Shown: in pieces, positions 599-10,791 of the stretch
Layout: each line of letters opens with the position of its first letter
Position numbering within the stretch: position 1 is the stretch's first letter
Assembly (NCBI GenBank): GCA_002011615.1
Contig: MTOH01000009.1
Span: forward strand, 107,372-155,576
DNA from: Candidatus Hydrothermus pacificus
Lineage (GTDB): Bacteria > Hydrothermota > Hydrothermia > Hydrothermales > Hydrothermaceae
Direction: 5' to 3'
DNA length: 48,205 nt
Translations under genes and position numbers: made by a program
The notes under the pieces: model-generated
The model's input: only the letters and a program-made list of their open reading frames with translations
Told to the model about the DNA's origin: nothing
Databases searched by the model: none

Positions 599-628
599 TT
601 GACAATGAAAATTGTTTTTTATTATAAT
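599..628 (+). promoter_or_regulatory. sigma70-type promoter of the DUF6754 cluster
   Basis: TTGACA at 599-604, an 18-base spacer, and TATAAT at 623-628. The start codon at 638 lies only 9 nt after the -10 box and has no Shine-Dalgarno sequence, so the transcript is predicted to be leaderless or nearly so. Confidence 0.75.
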
Positions 629-637
629 TAAGTCTGT

Positions 638-1771
638 ATGATTAAAATATTTTTAATTCTCCAGTTCTCGTTGCCTCCTCTCCCTGTTTCAGAAGTGGTT
701 GCAAAAGATGTTCCGAATGACGCAGGAGGTAAAATACAGATTGAATGGGAGCTTTCTCCGGATGATTCAATAATAGATTTCTATACAGTTTTTAAACAAA
801 AAAAGATTGAGGGACAATGGAGTGAACCTGAGACATTGACAGTTGTGAGGAGTGGAACAAATTCACTCACTGACACTGATTGTAAAGATGGTGTTGAATA
901 CAGGTATTTTGTGAGAGTTTCAAAAGGTGAAGAATTCAGTGATAGCCCCTTTTCAAATATAGCAATGTCTTCTGCCCAGTGGTTCCATAAAAAGAGGGCA
1001 AGTGTTTTGATTCTGCTTATAATAATTGTGGGACTTCTTCTCTACTTTATTCAAAAAACAAGAAAAGGCGAAGAACTTTTTATAAGAAAGATTGCAGGTC
1101 TTGATGCCCTTGATGAGGCTGTTGGAAGGTCAACAGAACTTGGCAGACCCCTTTTGTTTGTTCTGGGGCTCGGAACAATTGCTGACATACCCACGATTGC
1201 AGGACTTTCAATTTTGAAGAGGGTTTCAAAGAAATCCGCTGAATATGAAACAGATTTAATAGTTCCCTGTTTTGACCCTGTTGTTTTTGTTGCAGCACAG
1301 GAAACTGTTAAAGAAGGCTATATAGAAGGTGGAAGACCTGACCTGTTCAAAGAGGGAAATGTATTCTTTCTTTCCTATGACCAGTTTGGATATGCTGCTG
1401 GTGTTGATGGAATAATGGTGAGAGAAAAACCTGGTGCGGTATTTTTACAGGGATACTTTTATGCAGAATCCCTTATACTTGCAGAAACAGGTAACTCCAT
1501 AGGAGCAATTCAGATTTCAGGAACAACTGCAGTTACCCAGTTACCCTTCTTTATTGCTGCAACTGACTATACTCTGATAGGAGAGGAGATGTATGCAGCG
1601 AGTGCCTATCTAACAAAAGATGCTTTATCCCTTGCAACCATAAAGGGTGAAGACTGGGTGAAGATTTTGCTCATAGCTGTGATAATACTGGGAATAATTT
1701 TTGAAAGCATTGCATTTTTTACAAAGATACCCTGGTTACATGTATTGAAAAACTTTTTTACAGTGGTGTGA
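638..1771 (+). CDS. FN3 and DUF6754 domain membrane protein
   Basis: Uncharacterised membrane protein of 377 aa. A signal-like hydrophobic N-terminus (residues 1-17) leads into a fibronectin type III-like domain (about 20-110: IQIEWELSPDD, YTVF, YRYFVRVSKG). A transmembrane helix follows at about 122-138, then an alpha/beta region (about 145-345) that I take to be DUF6754 (LLFVLGLGTIADIPTIAG, IQISGTTAVTQLPFF), then a C-terminal helix at about 341-360. No catalytic motif is recognised. It is the first gene of a coupled cluster: the next gene starts one base after the stop. The FN3 part probably faces outside the cytoplasm. The function is unknown; the domain names rest on pattern recognition, not a profile search. 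Confidence 0.75.
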   Translation: MIKIFLILQFSLPPLPVSEVVAKDVPNDAGGKIQIEWELSPDDSIIDFYTVFKQKKIEGQWSEPETLTVVRSGTNSLTDTDCKDGVEYRYFVRVSKGEEFSDSPFSNIAMSSAQWFHKKRASVLILLIIIVGLLLYFIQKTRKGEELFIRKIAGLDALDEAVGRSTELGRPLLFVLGLGTIADIPTIAGLSILKRVSKKSAEYETDLIVPCFDPVVFVAAQETVKEGYIEGGRPDLFKEGNVFFLSYDQFGYAAGVDGIMVREKPGAVFLQGYFYAESLILAETGNSIGAIQISGTTAVTQLPFFIAATDYTLIGEEMYAASAYLTKDALSLATIKGEDWVKILLIAVIILGIIFESIAFFTKIPWLHVLKNFFTVV

Positions 1772-1772
1772 T

Positions 1773-2558
1773 ATGAAAAAAGAAGTTCCTCTTGCAATAA
1801 CATTTATCTCAGGGTTCTTGCTCATAGTGGCACTTTTTATACCCCATGAGCCCTTTGGAAGTCTTCAGGAAAGATTTAATGACTGGTACATAATTGTATC
1901 AGGATTTACACTTATTCTTGGAGTTGACTCTCTTATCTTATATCACTGGAGAAAAATAAAAAGAAAAGAAAAAGAAGCCCCCTATTCAATAATTCTAATA
2001 TCAACCTTTGTTATTGTTCTCGCATGGGGCATATATTCAGGGGTTAAATATGGAAACCCCTTTGCACCTGCTTCTTCTTTTTTGAGGTATTTTTATACCT
2101 ATATGTTTGTTCCTCTTCAGGCAACCATGTTTTCATTACTTGCCTTTTTTATCGCATCTGCTGCATACAGAGCGTTCAGAGCAAGAGGACTTAATGCAAC
2201 ACTACTTCTAATATCCGCAGGAATTGTTATGCTGGGAAGAGTTCCGAAAGGTGAGGAGGCAGCACCTTATTTTATAGGGATAACCCTTATTCTGCTTGCA
2301 ATAGTTTCTGTGCTTGAAGGAGTTTCAAGGGTAGAAGTTTATGAAAAGATAATATTTTTCGGGCTTGCAGTAGTTTCAATAATTGCAATTTTCCCTGCTG
2401 CATGGTTTCTGAAATTCAACCTGCCCAGACTTGCAGACTGGGTTATGAATGTTCCACAGCTCGGAGCAAAAAGAGGGCTTTTCATAGGAATATGGCTTGG
2501 TGCAATTGCGATGGCAATAAGAATAATACTCGGAATTGAAAGGACATATTTGAAATGA
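1773..2558 (+). CDS. polytopic membrane protein of the DUF6754 cluster
   Basis: Hypothetical protein of 261 aa with about eight hydrophobic helices (roughly residues 6-25, 38-58, 70-90, 107-132, 143-157, 166-184, 192-211, 236-255). A basic loop (HWRKIKRKEKEA) after helix 2 is probably cytoplasmic. No transporter or enzyme signature is recognised. It starts one base after the upstream stop and its own stop overlaps the next start as ATGA (2555-2558), so it is translationally coupled on both sides. It is therefore likely to be a subunit of a complex encoded by the cluster. Confidence 0.7.
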   Translation: MKKEVPLAITFISGFLLIVALFIPHEPFGSLQERFNDWYIIVSGFTLILGVDSLILYHWRKIKRKEKEAPYSIILISTFVIVLAWGIYSGVKYGNPFAPASSFLRYFYTYMFVPLQATMFSLLAFFIASAAYRAFRARGLNATLLLISAGIVMLGRVPKGEEAAPYFIGITLILLAIVSVLEGVSRVEVYEKIIFFGLAVVSIIAIFPAAWFLKFNLPRLADWVMNVPQLGAKRGLFIGIWLGAIAMAIRIILGIERTYLK

Positions 2559-3376
2559 GAGAATTTTTTGAGAGAATTTCAAAAATTGATAGAAGAATTA
2601 TTTATCTTCTTGTTTTCATAGGGGTTACAATACCTCTTTTAACCAGAAAGGGATTTGAGTTTAAACCCCTTCAGGAAGTTGAAACTGCCTATAATTTCAT
2701 TGAGAGCCTTCCTGAAGGCTCAAATGTTCTTGTATCAATAGACTATGATGCAGCGAGTATGCCCGAACTTCAGCCTCTTCTTGAAGTCATGCTCAGACAT
2801 CTCTTTAGAAGAAATTTGAAAGTGATTATGCTCGGTCACTGGCCCTTAGGTTTACCTCTGGGTCAGATTGCTCTTGAAAAAATAGCAAAGGAAATGGGCA
2901 GGAAATACGGGGAAGATTATGTATTTCTTGGTTACAGACCCGGTATCGCAGCGGTAATTTTAAACATAGGTAAAGAGATAAGGGGTGTTTTTGATGTGGA
3001 TTACAGAGGTATTTATCTTGACTCACTTCCAATAATGAGAAATGTGCACAATTACAGTGATATAGCACTTCTTATAGGTTTTGAAGCAGGTTCTGTGGGA
3101 GATTTCTGGGTTCAGTTTGCACAGGCAAGATTCAATCAGAAAATAATTTTAACATCAACCGCAGTCGTAACACCAGACCTTTATCCCTATTATCAGGCAA
3201 AACAGATTGTTGGGTTAATAGGAGGACTCAGAGGTGCTGCTGACTATGAAATCCTTGTTAAAAAGAAAGGTTTTGCGTATGCAGGAATGACTGCACAGAC
3301 AATAATCCATATAATAATAGTTGCACTGATTCTTATAGGGAATATAGGTTACCTTGCGATGAGGAGAGTAAGATGA
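2555..3376 (+). CDS. membrane-anchored alpha/beta protein of the DUF6754 cluster
   Basis: Hypothetical protein of 273 aa. One N-terminal helix (about 15-30) and one C-terminal helix (about 248-266) bracket a soluble domain of about 210 residues, predicted to lie outside the cytoplasm. The domain has alternating strands and helices in a Rossmann-like order (VLVSIDYDAAS, KVIMLGHWPLG, DIALLIGFEAGS, KIILTSTAVV, QIVGLIGGLRGAADYE). The layout of alpha/beta domain plus C-terminal helix mirrors the DUF6754 protein two genes upstream. No catalytic residues can be named. Both ends overlap neighbours as ATGA, showing tight translational coupling. Function unknown. Confidence 0.65.
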   Translation: MREFFERISKIDRRIIYLLVFIGVTIPLLTRKGFEFKPLQEVETAYNFIESLPEGSNVLVSIDYDAASMPELQPLLEVMLRHLFRRNLKVIMLGHWPLGLPLGQIALEKIAKEMGRKYGEDYVFLGYRPGIAAVILNIGKEIRGVFDVDYRGIYLDSLPIMRNVHNYSDIALLIGFEAGSVGDFWVQFAQARFNQKIILTSTAVVTPDLYPYYQAKQIVGLIGGLRGAADYEILVKKKGFAYAGMTAQTIIHIIIVALILIGNIGYLAMRRVR

Positions 3377-4038
3377 TAGATACAATATTTTTATGGATAG
3401 CAGCAGGTTTGACACTTGCCATATTTTCATTTCTATATAAAGACAATCCGTTTTATAAAGTTGCGGAACACATATATGTTGGCTCTGCTGCATCTTTCTG
3501 GTTTTTATATCTCTGGTTTTTTGATGTTGAACCAAAAATTTTAGGGCCTTTTAAGGAGGTTTTCCACGCATACGGATTCTGGGGAATGTGGGCACATTTC
3601 GGGGCAACTCAGTGGATTTTATTTATACCAATATTTTTATCCATATGTATGCTTTTAAGATTTATTCCTCCTGTTGCATGGCTTTCGAGATGGGCAATTG
3701 CTTTCACAGTTGGAATGGCTGCAGGTCTTGGCATTACAGGGGCACTTCAGGGATACATAGTCCCCCAGACACAGGCAACTCTCCTTCCTGTCTGGTCAGG
3801 AGACCTGCTTACAAGCTTTAACAACATTATAATAATAGTTGCAACTCTTACAACACTCGTATACTTCTTTTTCTCAAGGGAACATAAAGGTATTATAGGG
3901 GGATTTGCTAAAATCGGTATAACTTTTATAATGATAGCATTCGGTGCTTCTTTCGGTTATACCGTTATGGCGCGTATTTCCCTTCTTATAGGAAGGATTC
4001 ACTTTTTGATATTCGAGTGGCTTGGTTCCTTATTTTAA
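3373..4038 (+). CDS. polytopic membrane protein of the DUF6754 cluster
   Basis: Hypothetical protein of 221 aa with six predicted helices (about 4-22, 34-50, 80-97, 107-127, 148-166, 175-197). It is rich in aromatic residues (SFWFLYLWFF, YGFWGMWAHFG) and has a glycine-rich segment (VGMAAGLGITGALQG). No family is recognised. Its start overlaps the upstream stop (ATGA) and its 3' end overlaps the next gene by 22 bases. With the three genes before it, it makes a block of four membrane proteins that is probably one assembly. Confidence 0.65.
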   Translation: MIDTIFLWIAAGLTLAIFSFLYKDNPFYKVAEHIYVGSAASFWFLYLWFFDVEPKILGPFKEVFHAYGFWGMWAHFGATQWILFIPIFLSICMLLRFIPPVAWLSRWAIAFTVGMAAGLGITGALQGYIVPQTQATLLPVWSGDLLTSFNNIIIIVATLTTLVYFFFSREHKGIIGGFAKIGITFIMIAFGASFGYTVMARISLLIGRIHFLIFEWLGSLF

Positions 4039-5495
4039 TATTTTTATCTCAGCCGGATTTAAGAGAAGACCTTTTCTTTTCAAACCCCCGGAAATACAGA
4101 ATATACTATTTTAACTTAAGAAACGAATACCTGAGAAAGAAGAACTTTGAAAAACTTTATAAGATTTCTCAAAAGGCGGTTCAGGAACTTGGAAAGGCAG
4201 AAATATATTATTCTGATTTTTTAATCTCAAGGTATTTCACAAAGAGGAAAACAGAACCATTGATAGATTCAATTGATAAATTCTTTAATAAAGAAAGTGT
4301 CAAAAGAATTTTGTTTCAAATAATAAGTTTAAAGTATTATGAATTGGGGGAAAAAGTTGTATCTTACATGAGAAAAAAACAGAAAAATAATAAGATTTAT
4401 TCTGAAATTATGTATAGGATATATATAGAAGAAAACAATTATAAAGATGCTTTTAGAGAATTAAAGAAGTTCGCAAACAAAAATGTGGTTCAGATAGAAC
4501 TGAGAAGAGTCGCAGCGAAAATTGATTTCAAAGAAATTGAAGCAGAGTTCAAGGATAAGGAAGAATTTTACCCCGTCCTTGCTGATATAGCTCTTTTAAA
4601 AGGGCTTACTGAAAAGGCTCTAAATTACTTTATAAAGTCAAAAAATGAAGAAAAGATAAAAGAGTATCTCGAAAAAAACCCTTCTTTTATAATAAAGTTT
4701 ACAGATAAAGAAAAAGACCCCCTTATTTCATTTTACAGAGCAAAAGCCTTTGAGAAGGAAGGAGATATAGAAAAAGCATTTGAAATTTATAAAAAAATTG
4801 AAGGTAAACTTGAAAAATATGCGAAGGATATAAATTATTCAATTACAAAGATATATCTTGAAAAAAAAGATTTGAATGAAATTGAAAAAAGAATTTCAAA
4901 GATAGAGAATAAAGATAAAAAAAATCTGCTTCTTTCAATCTATAATTTATTAAAGGGAAATCCTGAGAAAAACTTCTCAATTTTAAAGAATATAAACACA
5001 GCAGATGGTCTTTTTTATCTTTCATTATCTTATTACTTTTCAAAAAATTTTTCAAGAGCAGAAACAACCTTTTTCAAATTTATAGAAAAATTTTCAGGAG
5101 ATGAAAGAGTGCCCGATGTTCTTTTTTTATCCTATTTGCTGATAAATTTCAAAAACAATCTTGAGAATTATGCTGAAATTCATTATAAGATTTTTAAAGG
5201 TAAAGACATAGAGCCACCTAAAGTAAAAGAAAAAATAGATTACCTTTACAATCTTTTATATTCAAGATATTTAAAGCAAAAAGGAGAACTGGATAAAAGC
5301 TTAAAATTACTTGAGAGGATATCAAAGGGCAAAGAAATTCCTGAAATAGTAAAGGTAAAATCTTTAATAGAAACTGCTGAAATATACGAGAAAAAAGATA
5401 AAAATAAGGCAAAGGAGATTTATAGAGATATTCTTTTAAAATATCCTGAAAATCCATTTTTCCCTTATATTCAGGAAAGAATTAAAAAATTATAG
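4017..5495 (+). CDS. TPR-repeat protein, probably exported or anchored
   Basis: Protein of 492 aa, rich in lysine, glutamate and aromatic residues, made of helix-turn-helix repeats of TPR or Sel1 type (for example FYRAKAFEKEGDIEKAFEIYKK near 240-262 and YLSLSYYFSKNFSRAETTFFKF near 335-360). The best start is GTG 4017, which gives a short hydrophobic N-terminus (AWFLILIFLS) resembling a signal or anchor. It overlaps the upstream membrane-protein gene by 22 bases, which implies coupling. TPR proteins usually scaffold protein complexes. Here it probably belongs to the membrane cluster just upstream, though it could be an independent lipid- or membrane-attached adaptor. Confidence 0.65.
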   Translation: MAWFLILIFLSQPDLREDLFFSNPRKYRIYYFNLRNEYLRKKNFEKLYKISQKAVQELGKAEIYYSDFLISRYFTKRKTEPLIDSIDKFFNKESVKRILFQIISLKYYELGEKVVSYMRKKQKNNKIYSEIMYRIYIEENNYKDAFRELKKFANKNVVQIELRRVAAKIDFKEIEAEFKDKEEFYPVLADIALLKGLTEKALNYFIKSKNEEKIKEYLEKNPSFIIKFTDKEKDPLISFYRAKAFEKEGDIEKAFEIYKKIEGKLEKYAKDINYSITKIYLEKKDLNEIEKRISKIENKDKKNLLLSIYNLLKGNPEKNFSILKNINTADGLFYLSLSYYFSKNFSRAETTFFKFIEKFSGDERVPDVLFLSYLLINFKNNLENYAEIHYKIFKGKDIEPPKVKEKIDYLYNLLYSRYLKQKGELDKSLKLLERISKGKEIPEIVKVKSLIETAEIYEKKDKNKAKEIYRDILLKYPENPFFPYIQERIKKL

Positions 5496-5737: not shown

Positions 5738-6634
5738 GTGAAAGTATGGTTAAAAAATCACATGATTGAAACAGAGAATGTAAAGGAAAAATTACCCATT
5801 TCAGTAATCATTTTGACTTACAACGAAGAAGATAATATTGAAAAATGTCTTAAATCTGTTTACAGCTGGACAGATGAAGTTTTTATTGTTGATTCTTTTT
5901 CAACAGATAAAACCCTTGAAATTGTGAAAAAATATACGGATAAAATTTATCAACATGAATTTACAAATTATTCAGAGCAAAGAAACTGGGCTCAGAAAAA
6001 TTTACCTTTAAAAAATGAGCTGGTTTTTCATATAGATGCAGATGAATGGGTAACCGATGGTTTGAAAAAAGAGTTATTTAAAATTTTTCAGAAGGGAGAG
6101 TTTAAAAGGTATGATGGGTTTCTGATTTCAAGAAAAACAATTTTTTATGGAAAGTGGATTAAACATGGAGGACATTTCCCCAGATATCATCTGAGAATTT
6201 TTAAAAAACATAAAGGGAGGTGTGAAAAAAGAGAGTATGACCAGCATTTTATTGTTGAAGGCAATATAAAAAAGCTTAAAAGCGTGATAGTAAATGACCT
6301 GACCCAAGAAATTTCAGAATTTATAAAAAAGCATTTGAAATGGGCTAAATTTGAAGCAGAAACTATTGTCAGAGAAAAACAGGGTGAGATAGTTCCTTCT
6401 TTTAAGGGTAATCCTGTCCAGAAAATGAGATGGTTGAGAAAAAATATATACGGGAAAATGCCCCTTTTTATAAGGCCTTTTTTATACTTTTTCTACAGGT
6501 ACTTCATAAGACTTGGCTTTCTGGACGGAGTGGAGGGACTTATTTTTCATTTTATTCAGGGGTTCTGGTTCAGGTTTATGGTGGATGTGAAGATATGGGA
6601 GATGAAGAAAGCCAAAATTGAATTAAAATGTTAA
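5738..6634 (+). CDS. family 2 glycosyltransferase (WaaE/KdtX-like)
   Basis: Cytoplasmic-face glycosyltransferase of 298 aa that transfers a sugar from a nucleotide donor onto a surface glycan or lipid-linked precursor. The GT-A fold is clear: ISVIILTYNEEDNIEKCL at 21-38, the DSFSTDKT donor loop near 54, and the DADEW metal site near 102. The C-terminal half has hydrophobic aromatic helices (FLYFFYRYF) typical of WaaE/KdtX-type enzymes. GTG 5738 and ATG 5762 are both possible starts; neither has a good Shine-Dalgarno sequence, and ATG 5762 removes only eight residues. Its end overlaps the next gene, placing it first in a four-gene glycan operon. The exact sugar is unknown. Confidence 0.85.
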   Translation: MKVWLKNHMIETENVKEKLPISVIILTYNEEDNIEKCLKSVYSWTDEVFIVDSFSTDKTLEIVKKYTDKIYQHEFTNYSEQRNWAQKNLPLKNELVFHIDADEWVTDGLKKELFKIFQKGEFKRYDGFLISRKTIFYGKWIKHGGHFPRYHLRIFKKHKGRCEKREYDQHFIVEGNIKKLKSVIVNDLTQEISEFIKKHLKWAKFEAETIVREKQGEIVPSFKGNPVQKMRWLRKNIYGKMPLFIRPFLYFFYRYFIRLGFLDGVEGLIFHFIQGFWFRFMVDVKIWEMKKAKIELKC

Positions 6635-8370
6635 TCCTCGGAATTAATTCATATCATCCTGATGCTTCAGCCTGTATAGTTGTTGATGGAAAACTTGTTG
6701 CAGCGTGTGAGGAGGAGAGGTTTACAAGAGTAAAGCATTATGCGGGATTTCCTGAAAATTCAATTAAGTTCTGTCTTAAAAAAGCGGGTGCTCACATAAA
6801 AGATGTAGATTATATTGCTATACCAAGAGAACCCAATGCAAGACTTTTTAATAAAGTTCTTTATGGACTTAAAATACCTGCTCTTACTTTAAAAAGAATT
6901 ACAGCATGGAGAAAAACCTTTGATGTTAAAAAAAAGCTGTCTGAGGTATTTGATATTCCAGAGGGAAATATAAAGGCAAAGATTTTCAAGATTGAACATC
7001 ACAGAGCCCATCTTGCCTCTTCATTTTTTGTCTCTCCCTTTGAAAAAGCATTTTTATTTTCAACCGATGCACTCGGTGATTTTGCCTCAACAATGTGGGG
7101 ATATGGAGAGGGTAATAAGATTAAAGTTCTGGGTGACATAAAATTTCCTCATTCTCTCGGGTTTTATTATACAGCTATAACCCAGTTTCTCGGATTTTTA
7201 AAATTTGGAGATGAGTATAAAGTTATGGGACTTTCTGCCTATGGAGAACCCGAGTTTGAGGAAGAGTTTAAAAAAATTCTAAAAATAAAAGGAAAAACCT
7301 TTAGACTGGGGCTTGAGTATTTTGTTCATCACAAAAAACTGATTGATTTAAACTTTGAAGGATATCCTGAGATTGATATTCTTTTCTCTAAAAGTCTTGA
7401 AAATTTACTTGGAAAGAGACGAGAGTCCGGGGAACCCATTAAAAAGAGGCATGAAAATATAGCCTCAACTTTACAATATCATTTTGAAAAGGTTTTTTTC
7501 CATGTTATAAATTCCCTTTATGATAACTACAGACCACATACATCCAGTCTGTGCATGGCGGGTGGAGTGGCATTTAACTGTGTTGCGAATGGAAAGATTT
7601 TTGATAATACGCAATTTAAAAAGGTTTATATTCAGTCTGCTGCAGGAGATGCAGGTCTTGCAGTAGGTTCAGCCTTTTATTTATGGAATCATGTGCTCAA
7701 TAATAAAAGGAATTTTGTGATGGAACATGCTTATTGGGGTCCTGATTATTCTGAAACAGAAGTTGAAAGGGCAATTGATGAAAAGAAAAATGAGATAAGA
7801 GAAAGGGGATTTAAAATTGAAAAAATCAAAGACAAAGATAAACTTATAAGGTTAACTGCAGGGTATATTTCTCAGGGTAAAATTGTGGGGTGGTTTAGAG
7901 GGAGAGTGGAATGGGGACCAAGGGCACTTGGGGCAAGGAGTATTGTATGTGACCCGAGAAGAGAGGAAATAAAGGATATATTAAATAAAAGGATAAAACA
8001 CAGAGAGCCTTTTAGACCCTTTGCACCCTCAATCCTTGAGGAAAAAACAGGGGATTTTTTCGAAAAAACTCATCCCTCTCCTTTTATGCTCTTTGCCTAT
8101 AAGGTGAAACCCGATAAGAGAAAATTGATTCCTGCTCCAACACATATTGATGGGACAGGAAGATTGCAAACTGTGAGTAGAAAGACAAATCCTGAATACT
8201 GGAAGCTCATTAAGGAATTTGAGAATATCACAGGTGTTCCTGTAATCTTAAATACATCTTTTAATGAAAATGAACCTATTGTTAACACACCTGAAGAAGC
8301 AATTAATTGTTTTTTGAGAACAAAAATGGATGTGCTTGTGATAGAGAATTATATTATTTATAAAGAATGA
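6628..8370 (+). CDS. carbamoyltransferase, NodU/CmcH family
   Basis: Enzyme of 580 aa that transfers a carbamoyl group from carbamoyl phosphate, through a carbamoyl-adenylate, to a hydroxyl group, usually on a sugar. The N-terminal Kae1-like domain starts at once (LILGINSYHPDASACIV) and carries the metal motif HHRAH near 123-127, DALGDFA near 149, and the MAGGVAFNC nucleotide loop near 310. The YrdC-like C-terminal domain has GRVEWGPRALGARSIVCDPR near 425-444. Length is normal for the family. It overlaps the upstream glycosyltransferase by 7 bases and the next gene by ATGA, so it probably decorates the glycan made by this operon. Family assignment is firm; the acceptor is inferred. Confidence 0.92.
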   Translation: MLILGINSYHPDASACIVVDGKLVAACEEERFTRVKHYAGFPENSIKFCLKKAGAHIKDVDYIAIPREPNARLFNKVLYGLKIPALTLKRITAWRKTFDVKKKLSEVFDIPEGNIKAKIFKIEHHRAHLASSFFVSPFEKAFLFSTDALGDFASTMWGYGEGNKIKVLGDIKFPHSLGFYYTAITQFLGFLKFGDEYKVMGLSAYGEPEFEEEFKKILKIKGKTFRLGLEYFVHHKKLIDLNFEGYPEIDILFSKSLENLLGKRRESGEPIKKRHENIASTLQYHFEKVFFHVINSLYDNYRPHTSSLCMAGGVAFNCVANGKIFDNTQFKKVYIQSAAGDAGLAVGSAFYLWNHVLNNKRNFVMEHAYWGPDYSETEVERAIDEKKNEIRERGFKIEKIKDKDKLIRLTAGYISQGKIVGWFRGRVEWGPRALGARSIVCDPRREEIKDILNKRIKHREPFRPFAPSILEEKTGDFFEKTHPSPFMLFAYKVKPDKRKLIPAPTHIDGTGRLQTVSRKTNPEYWKLIKEFENITGVPVILNTSFNENEPIVNTPEEAINCFLRTKMDVLVIENYIIYKE

Positions 8371-9587
8371 AAAGGATTGTTTTTATAAACAGGTCCTTTT
8401 ACCCAGATGTTGAAGCAACGGGTCAGTTTTATACCGAACTTGCAGAATTTCTGTCCGGAAAATTTGATATTACTTTTGTTTGCGGGCTTTCTTATTATGT
8501 TAAGATTCACGGTTTTGGTTTTAAATTATGGCGAAAAGAAAAATTCAAAAATGTGAAAATTATAAGGGTGAGACACACCCTGTTCTGGAAAGGCAATATT
8601 TTAAAAAGATTCATAAACTGGTTAACATTTTCATTTGTTTCATTTTTTGTTCTTTTAAAGATTAAACCTCACATAGTTATATGTGGAACAGACCCTCCTC
8701 TACTCGGGATTTTATGTTATATCCTGAAAAAGTTAAAAAATGTCCCTTTTATTTATGGGTGTAACGACCTTTATCCTGATGTTGCAATAGCACTGGGAAC
8801 ATTCAAAAAAGGATTTCTTACCAGTTACTTTGACTATCTTAATAAAAAAGCTCTTGTTAATTCCCTTAAAATAATAGCACTGGGTGAAGATATGAAGGAA
8901 CTTATAGTGGATAAAGGGATTAAAAAGACAAAGGTTTGTGTTATACCAAGCTGGGTGGATACCAGAAAAATTTTTCCTGTTCCAGAAGATAATAATTTAT
9001 TTTTAAAAAAGTATAACTTAAAAGGTAAATTTGTTATAATGTATTCAGGTAATATAGGGCTCCCTCATAATCTGGAAGTTTTGGTTGATGCTCTTGAAAA
9101 AGTCAGGAGTAAAGAGGACTGGGTAATGGTGTTTGTGGGAGATGGCGTGAAGAGAAAAGAAATTTTACAGAGAATAAAGTATAAAAATCTGGAAAACAGG
9201 GTAAAATTTTTACCCTATCAACCAAAAGATTTTCTTTCACATTCTTTAAGCGCAGCAGATTTACATATTGTGTCTTTAAAAGACGGGGCAAAAGGAGTAT
9301 GTGTTCCTTCAAAAATTTACGGAATTTTATCGGCAGGCAAAGCCTTTATATCAATATGTGATAAAGATTCAAATTCCTCAGTAATAGTAAAAAAATACAG
9401 GTGTGGACTGTATGCGAATCCTGGAGATGTTGATGATATAAAAAATAAAATAGAATGGGCAATAACAAATAAACAGGAATTAAAAAAAATGGAAGAAAGA
9501 GCAAGAAAAACAGCAATTGAAAATTTTGATAAAGATATTGTGTTGAAAAAATGGGAAGAATTTATGGGAGCAGTTTCAATTGATTAA
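8367..9587 (+). CDS. family 4 glycosyltransferase (WbuB-like)
   Basis: GT-B fold glycosyltransferase of 406 aa. The N-terminal acceptor domain includes FINRSFYPDVEATGQFYTEL at 5-24, and a membrane-associating hydrophobic stretch near 85-100. The C-terminal donor domain shows IPSWVD near 192, VIMYSGNIGLPHN near 223, and VPSKIYGILSAGKAFI near 313-328, which is the nucleotide-sugar site of WbuB-type enzymes. It begins inside the carbamoyltransferase stop (ATGA) and its end overlaps the WecA-like gene by 8 bases. It probably adds a sugar to an undecaprenyl-linked glycan intermediate. The specific linkage cannot be read from sequence. Confidence 0.87.
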   Translation: MKRIVFINRSFYPDVEATGQFYTELAEFLSGKFDITFVCGLSYYVKIHGFGFKLWRKEKFKNVKIIRVRHTLFWKGNILKRFINWLTFSFVSFFVLLKIKPHIVICGTDPPLLGILCYILKKLKNVPFIYGCNDLYPDVAIALGTFKKGFLTSYFDYLNKKALVNSLKIIALGEDMKELIVDKGIKKTKVCVIPSWVDTRKIFPVPEDNNLFLKKYNLKGKFVIMYSGNIGLPHNLEVLVDALEKVRSKEDWVMVFVGDGVKRKEILQRIKYKNLENRVKFLPYQPKDFLSHSLSAADLHIVSLKDGAKGVCVPSKIYGILSAGKAFISICDKDSNSSVIVKKYRCGLYANPGDVDDIKNKIEWAITNKQELKKMEERARKTAIENFDKDIVLKKWEEFMGAVSID

Positions 9588-10596
9588 TATATTCTCAATT
9601 ATATTTTCATTCCTGTTCTGTATGTTTCTAACAATTTCATTTATACCTATTGCTCATAAACTCGGAAGAAATCTGAATATAATAGATTTTCCGGATAAAA
9701 AGAGAAAAATTCACCAGAAACCTTTGCCCCGAACCGCGGGAATAGCAATTGCACTATCAGTTATACTTACATTTTTCTTTTTCCCGAAAGAAAAAATAAT
9801 CTATTACCTGATTCCTTTTTCTCTTTTATTCTTCACAATAGGCTTTGTGGATGATACGGGAATAAAAATCAGAAATATCTACAAATGGTTAATAGGGGCA
9901 GGGATTGTCCTGATATTCAGCATTCTTACGCCTTTCAAGATTCAGGAACTGGGGAATCTGATGGGTTTTGGTAAAATCAGTATGAACTTTGTTATCTCTT
10001 TGATTTTTTCTATATTTGCAATAAACTGTGTTGTGCATTCTTTTAATTTGATAGATGGTATTGATGGGCTTGCAGGCGGAGTTAGTTTTCTGGCAGGTTT
10101 GAGCTTTGCCTTTTTAAATTTCAGAAATTCAGATTTTTATCTTGCCTGTGTTTCAGCAGGTATTGCGGGTGCTTCCCTCGGATTTTTATTCTACAACTTT
10201 TACCCTGCAAAAATATTTCTCGGAGATGCTGGAAGTTTTTTCTTGGGAGCAATGATTACAGGTATATCCGTGTTTTCAGCAAAAACAGGTTATGGAGGTG
10301 TAAAACCCATACAGGCAGTTTTAATACTCTCTCTCCCAATTTCTGACATGATGTGGACGGTTTTAAGAAGAGGGTTTACAACAAAAAATATATTTGATTC
10401 AGACCTTACCCATCTTCATTACAGGGTTTTCAAAAAAATTAAATCCCAGAGAAAAACAGTTGTCCTTTTGCTCGCACTCTCTGTTTTGTTCAGCCTTGAA
10501 GCTATTTTTTTAGAAAATTTACCCGATTATATTCTTTTTCTCATATTCTGGATTAACTTTTTCATTGTAGGATTCCTGGATAAAATTTTCAAATAA
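9580..10596 (+). CDS. WecA/MraY-type undecaprenyl-phosphate sugar-1-phosphate transferase
   Basis: Polytopic inner-membrane enzyme of 338 aa that moves a HexNAc-1-phosphate from UDP-sugar to undecaprenyl phosphate, the first step of lipid-linked glycan assembly. Family motifs are all present: IHQKPLPRTAGIAI near 44-57, FVDDTG near 88, NLIDGIDGLAGG near 158, FLGDAGSFFLG near 213, and the HLHYR loop near 274. About eleven helices are expected. The chosen start is TTG 9580, overlapping the GT4 gene; no closer in-frame ATG keeps helix 1. A peptidoglycan MraY is less likely because the neighbours are glycan-modifying enzymes rather than mur genes. It closes the operon; a palindromic repeat begins at the next base. 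Confidence 0.9.
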   Translation: MINIFSIIFSFLFCMFLTISFIPIAHKLGRNLNIIDFPDKKRKIHQKPLPRTAGIAIALSVILTFFFFPKEKIIYYLIPFSLLFFTIGFVDDTGIKIRNIYKWLIGAGIVLIFSILTPFKIQELGNLMGFGKISMNFVISLIFSIFAINCVVHSFNLIDGIDGLAGGVSFLAGLSFAFLNFRNSDFYLACVSAGIAGASLGFLFYNFYPAKIFLGDAGSFFLGAMITGISVFSAKTGYGGVKPIQAVLILSLPISDMMWTVLRRGFTTKNIFDSDLTHLHYRVFKKIKSQRKTVVLLLALSVLFSLEAIFLENLPDYILFLIFWINFFIVGFLDKIFK

Positions 10597-10664: not shown

Positions 10665-10693
10665 TTGACAAAATTACATATTTCTTGTATAAT
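10665..10693 (+). promoter_or_regulatory. consensus promoter for tRNA-Gly and the alaS operon
   Basis: Perfect TTGACA at 10665-10670, a 17-base spacer and perfect TATAAT at 10688-10693, 25 nt before the tRNA 5' end. Such a strong match fits a stable-RNA promoter. Confidence 0.9.
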
Positions 10694-10718: not shown

Positions 10719-10791
10719 GCGGGAGTAGCTCAGCCGGTAGAGCGCTACCTTGCCAAGGTAGGGGTCGCGGGTTCGAATCCCGTCTCCCGCT
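10719..10791 (+). tRNA. tRNA-Gly (GCC)
   Basis: 73 nt. The acceptor stem GCGGGAG pairs with CTCCCGC and the discriminator is T. The D arm (GCTC/GAGC) and the T arm with GTTCGAATC are standard. The anticodon loop holds GCC at 10752-10754. CCA is not encoded. It lies between a consensus promoter and alaS, so alaS is probably co-transcribed and the tRNA processed out. Confidence 0.97.

Follow-up and report, generated by a model that had tools for sequence, protein, structure and literature searches.

The window (48,205 nt of Candidatus Hydrothermus pacificus, contig MTOH01000009.1) carries near its start five closely packed open reading frames on the plus strand. The first, g1 (638-1771), encodes an FN3-DUF6754 membrane protein; g2 (1773-2558), a polytopic membrane protein; g3 (2555-3376), a doubly anchored alpha/beta protein; g4 (3373-4038), a membrane protein with ~6 transmembrane (TM) segments; and g5 (4017-5495), a TPR protein that falls outside the conserved system described below. 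One base separates g1 from g2, the g2/g3 and g3/g4 junctions are ATGA overlaps, and g4 and g5 overlap by 22 bases; the five reading frames and their junctions are thus as the initial annotation had given them. A sigma-70 type promoter, TTGACA-N18-TATAAT (599-628, plus strand), precedes the genes. Its -10 box ends 9 bases from the g1 ATG, which would leave the transcript with almost no leader. The description of this promoter as strong agrees with its 12/12 consensus bases, but L003, the closest relative at 80% identity, does not conserve the element. The sole other 12/12 promoter within the first 11 kb, TTGACA-N17-TATAAT at 10665-10693, directly precedes tRNA-Gly(gcc) (10719-10791).

The end of a Pit-type (PHO4) transporter gene (94-570; also L118:9758-10942) lies 67 bases before g1, in the same orientation, and no such gene was found adjoining other cassettes. 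Downstream, positions 5738-10596 hold what appears, as read from the sequences only, to be a polysaccharide cluster that includes a GT2-like glycosyltransferase, a NodU-type carbamoyltransferase, a GT4-like glycosyltransferase and a WecA/MraY-like membrane transferase. The genome contains a second complete g1-g2-g3-g4 cassette (G000:C7), which is followed by a type I phosphodiesterase family gene (L115:7295-8641; PF01663, E 9.6e-45).

The g1 protein matches PF20539 (DUF6754) over nearly the whole profile (profile positions 2-252 of 257; E = 6.6e-110, 366.7 bits against a cut-off of 27). The Pfam entry covers one domain of unknown function and is silent on a cassette, partners or a role. From the N-terminus, g1 consists of a signal peptide, an extracytoplasmic FN3 domain (~17-111), a TM segment (~118-140), a predicted cytoplasmic Rossmann-like DUF6754 domain (~145-328) and a C-terminal TM segment (~329-362). 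The FN3 domain falls below the cut-off in a single-sequence Pfam search (13.2 vs 25); the family alignment profile matches many FN3 chains, the structural model resembles FN3 folds (e.g., 6pol_E, TM-score 0.81), and FN3 matches dominate the fold search. The assignment of g1 as an FN3-DUF6754 protein is therefore upheld by domain, profile and fold searches together.

For g2, g3 and g4, no Pfam or NCBIfam family scored above its curated cut-off. The matches obtained, such as TssN (E 0.008) and SpoVAB (E 0.005), were all sub-threshold, and profile searches of the PDB gave nothing credible. The earlier statement that these proteins carry no recognizable transporter, secretion or enzyme signature thus holds, and no homology of the membrane pair to a known transporter was found. 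The 8 TM segments noted earlier for g2 are predicted in the source lineage, but most relatives have 6. Most of these (about 206-220 aa) are without residues ~165-215, so the 8-TM form is a lineage-specific feature. The g3 protein has, as first described, two TM segments (13-30 and 240-270) around an alpha/beta domain, which is Rossmann-like and predicted to lie outside the cytoplasm; the C-terminal segment contains the invariant residues H252 and N263. In g4 the invariant residues are D24, N25, E32, R106, Q132, T197 and R201. Several invariant polar residues, H252 and N263 in g3 and E32, R106, Q132 and R201 in g4, are within or adjoin membrane helices. Based on the signal peptide, hydropathy and the distribution of positive residues, the FN3 domain of g1 is probably outside, its DUF6754 domain inside and the g3 domain outside.

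AlphaFold models built from family alignments are confident (pLDDT 93.4 for g3 and 89.8 for g1). In the models, the DUF6754 domain of g1 and the g3 domain have an identical order of helices and strands and both end in a TM helix, suggesting a similar fold class. Homology between the two heads was considered and is not claimed, since hhalign scored them no better than a reversed-profile control and they share secondary-structure order only. The fold search with g3 returned weak Rossmann-like matches (best 5i45, E 1.7e-4, TM-score 0.32; 1kjn_A, TMt 0.63), which are insufficient for assigning function.

The four genes g1-g4 form a well-supported conserved module of fixed order. When one genome of each species was scanned, 80 loci were returned. 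The record labels include WOR-3, Hydrothermota, Cloacimonadota, Poribacteria, Latescibacterota, Zixibacteriota, Fermentibacteria, Aegiribacteria, Coatesbacteria, Calditrichaeota, Ignavibacterium and CSSED10-310. In six-frame profile searches the order g1-g2-g3-g4 was found within 4.5 kb in 78 of 87 scorable g1 copies (those with enough downstream sequence) from about ten phyla. Most of the nine exceptions come from a gene match in two pieces, a g1 that is split, or genes lying further apart. Scattering of the genes in related genomes, which the initial annotation had set against a system, was therefore not seen, and the conservation of order across phyla that it had set in favor of one extends to all four genes.

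The cassette is nearly universal in at least two deep-branching phyla. Of the 147 genomes that represent the source (WOR-3) phylum, 140 have DUF6754, at 1-7 copies, and g3 and g4 are each present in 144, the same three genomes being without both. In a second phylum (that of L069, L035, L039 and L076) DUF6754 is present in all 133 genomes, mostly in five copies. None of 14 named control genomes carries it. Two or three cassettes often stand in tandem. Genomes typed for copy number numbered 80; g1, g3 and g4 agree in 61 of them and differ by at most one copy in 77, a correlation inflated by kinship among the 80 genomes. Across 83 complete cassettes, the pairwise distances of the four proteins co-vary, with correlations of 0.87-0.92. 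When cassettes were shuffled only within one locus, so that the species signal was kept, the g1/g3 correlation, observed at 0.889, averaged 0.771; the highest value among 500 shuffles was 0.845, and none reached the observed one. Furthermore, tandem cassettes resemble the corresponding cassettes of other genomes more closely than they resemble one another. This pattern is what partner-specific, anciently duplicated complexes would be expected to show.

The initial annotation had proposed that all five genes encode one complex of fixed stoichiometry. The part concerning g1-g4 stands, given their order and co-evolution, but g5 does not belong. Domain search confirmed its TPR content, and it has no match in the other cassette loci fetched. 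Among 16 genomes searched (the source and 15 of the same order and class), a full-length g5 is found only in the source. One genome (G027) retains a fragment with two stops directly after g4, and the remaining matches are weak, unlinked or absent; L003 has a 126-aa remnant. A stoichiometric complex that includes the TPR protein could draw on the 22-base g4/g5 overlap, but a gene with no orthologues beside other cassettes, decayed or absent in the nearest relatives, makes such a complex extremely improbable, and in L007 the same position overlapping g4 is occupied by lspA, the signal peptidase II gene. The g5 candidate was thus rejected as a system member; it is a local neighbor unrelated to g1-g4.

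Two other genes recur next to the cassettes, one encoding a protein of the GlmL/MutL family (PF13941) and the other a ~375-aa protein, c0, that has no Pfam family of its own. A third, c9, encodes a protein of 100-165 aa that carries the motif TxPAIxFLExxKP. Locus L119 shows c9-MutL-c0-[g1-4]-[g1-4], all contiguous; L120 shows MutL-c0-[g1-4]-[g1-4], and in L121 cassettes come after MutL-c0. Linkage of cassettes to these partners is also seen in records from Fermentibacteria, Latescibacterota, Coatesbacteria and Zixibacteriota. In most genomes of the WOR-3 phylum tested, c9 adjoins MutL (e.g., G001, G002, G027, G029, G083, G087, G106, G110, G124, G125, G128 and G129). MutL is present in 139 of 147 source-phylum genomes, and c0 in 29 of 32 DUF6754-bearing genomes chosen across many phyla. 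In the source genome MutL, c0 and c9 lie on contigs C10, C16 and C1, respectively, all unlinked to cassettes, and were thus invisible to the initial annotation. In three other genomes (G125:C118, G128:C53 and G010:C89) a second, diverged MutL adjoins a diverged c0-like gene, indicating that the MutL-c0 pair itself has paralogues.

The MutL of the source genome matches PF13941 with E 8.4e-127 and has an N-terminal phosphate-type motif, DCGSTTTKA, which together make it a candidate ASKHA ATPase. It is about 610 aa long, compared to ~450 aa in the GlmL/MutL family (PF13941, TIGR01319), and MutL proteins of this kind neighbor c9 and c0, not a mutase; no mutase occurs in the neighborhoods examined. 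A phmmer search with MutL found nothing. The Fermentibacteria relative scores 217.5 bits against a cut-off of 475 for GlmL and 158.7 against 204 for the GlmL family, and is also below the Or-4 cut-off. With these scores and no mutase partner, the protein is not placed in GlmL. The similarity to GlmL nevertheless allows a reading in which MutL and c0 act in one-carbon or cofactor metabolism, through glutamate-mutase-like reactivation, glycine cleavage or lipoate, and the cassette is their membrane partner or a substrate transporter. GcvPA/GcvPB/GcvT genes lie upstream in Fermentibacteria, and in two loci the gene after g4 belongs to the lipoate-ligase family (LplA-B_cat; L119:2881-3627 and L121:3966-4820), but neighbors of this kind are limited to single lineages and absent around the cassettes of the source genome. 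Since MutL proteins of this type are, in addition, under the curated GlmL and Or-4 cut-offs, this reading is improbable.

Neighbors of other types were similarly restricted. Glycine cleavage P-proteins, AroB, a sulfatase, MazG and a TonB receptor were considered as general partners and rejected, each being confined to single lineages. ExbB/ExbD-like genes are found near cassettes in a few lineages (L010:2079-3100; L045:14295-15878).

The c0 protein is highly conserved, with a mean column identity of 68% among 11 sequences from four other groups and the source genome. It matches RnfC_N (PF13375, E 3.8e-5), NQRA_N (PF05896, E 4.9e-5), biotin-lipoyl-like and KOW profiles; the RnfC_N match is weak, its E of 3.8e-5 being the best per protein and the match occurring in five of the 11 members. 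The C-terminal domain is probably KOW-like. These matches, together with the multi-TM pair g2/g4, would fit a redox-driven ion pump distantly similar to Rnf or Nqr, in which c0 takes the place of RnfC/NqrA and g2 and g4 that of the membrane subunits. However, only the N-terminal barrel-sandwich domain family is represented in c0, the rest of which, with its KOW-like C-terminus, is unlike RnfC/NqrA and has no further Rnf/Nqr domain. Proteins g2 and g4 match no Rnf/Nqr family, g1-g4 as a whole are unrelated to these complexes, and the other Rnf/Nqr subunits were not found. The family alignments of g1-g4 contain no invariant cysteine, which argues against iron-sulfur chemistry, nor any other cofactor-ligand pattern. 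A pump of this type is thus about as doubtful as the metabolic role considered above, and the system is not assigned to the Rnf/Nqr complexes.

The partners are not only linked to the cassette but were also lost with it. The two genomes of genus g67 (G126 and G127, 94-95% complete) lack g1, g3, g4, MutL and c0; c9 is absent from G127 and represented in G126 only by a broken match (E = 6.5e-4). The four other members of the family that were tested for the same six parts keep all of them, so that the co-loss is one evolutionary event in one genus of draft genomes. Two further draft genomes, in which gaps are possible, have partial sets: G013 is without g1/g3/g4 but keeps MutL and c0, and G080 is without MutL but keeps the remaining parts. 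Linkage, co-loss, copy-number tracking and shared distribution support the assignment of g1-g4, c9, MutL and c0 to one seven-protein system.

The reading we favor, which we put at about an even chance, is that g1-g4 form an inner-membrane complex that works with c9-MutL-c0, probably in transport or energy coupling. The four proteins would associate into one hetero-oligomer, its body formed by the polytopic g2 and g4 and flanked by the doubly anchored g1 and g3 with their Rossmann-like heads. The DUF6754 head of g1 would be on the cytoplasmic face, with FN3 outside, and the head of g3 on the outer face. On the cytoplasmic side c9, MutL and c0 would form a group in which MutL, as a GlmL-family ASKHA ATPase, may bind and hydrolyze ATP, while c0 would contribute an RnfC_N/NqrA_N-type barrel-sandwich domain and the probable KOW-like domain. 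ATP-driven changes in MutL may then be relayed through c0 to the membrane complex. Alternatively, the complex may draw on an ion gradient, with the invariant polar residues of the membrane helices conducting the ions. We know of no ASKHA protein that drives membrane transport, which counts against the favored reading. In either case something would be moved or sensed across the inner membrane. The several ancient, partner-specific cassettes of each genome may represent parallel versions of the machine or subunits of a larger one.

A cytoplasmic ASKHA protein next to membrane-spanning partners is also found in known systems. PilM, FtsA and GspL are actin-like cytoplasmic platforms; the likeness to them is by analogy, and the membrane partners are unrelated. 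The MutL-type protein might similarly be a platform that g1-g4 connect through the inner membrane to a surface or outer-membrane structure, so as to align or anchor that structure, with no transport in the complex itself. Such a trans-envelope scaffold would account for the ASKHA-type partner, for two doubly anchored proteins whose heads are predicted on opposite faces, for the FN3 domain outside the cytoplasm, and for the occurrence of the cassette mainly in lineages taken as diderm. But pilus, secretion and division genes do not recur beside the cassettes, and two polytopic proteins with invariant polar membrane residues are more than a scaffold needs. A scaffold is therefore unlikely, if less so than the redox pump. 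The transport or energy-coupling complex can be stated in a stronger form, in which the seven proteins constitute a core machine of several deep-branching phyla that belong to the FCB group or lie near it. The ASKHA ATPase would act through a barrel-sandwich adaptor on a transport or energy-coupling complex of the inner membrane that bears Rossmann-like heads on either face. This version is put forward tentatively.

What is already known is DUF6754 as a catalogued domain of unknown function and MutL as a family. In the open-access literature searched, no paper on DUF6754 or PF20539 was found, nor any on GlmL-type proteins relevant to the cassette. Neither the cassette nor its partners, universality or co-loss turned up in those papers, and earlier descriptions are possible. 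The seven-gene parts list, the genus in which the parts were lost together and the high-confidence models make the system directly testable. If the stronger form is true, the seven-protein machine would constitute a new class of membrane complex coupled to ATP. A near-universal, multi-copy and strongly conserved membrane complex with a dedicated ATPase candidate would point to a gap in the picture of basic cell biology for several uncultured phyla.
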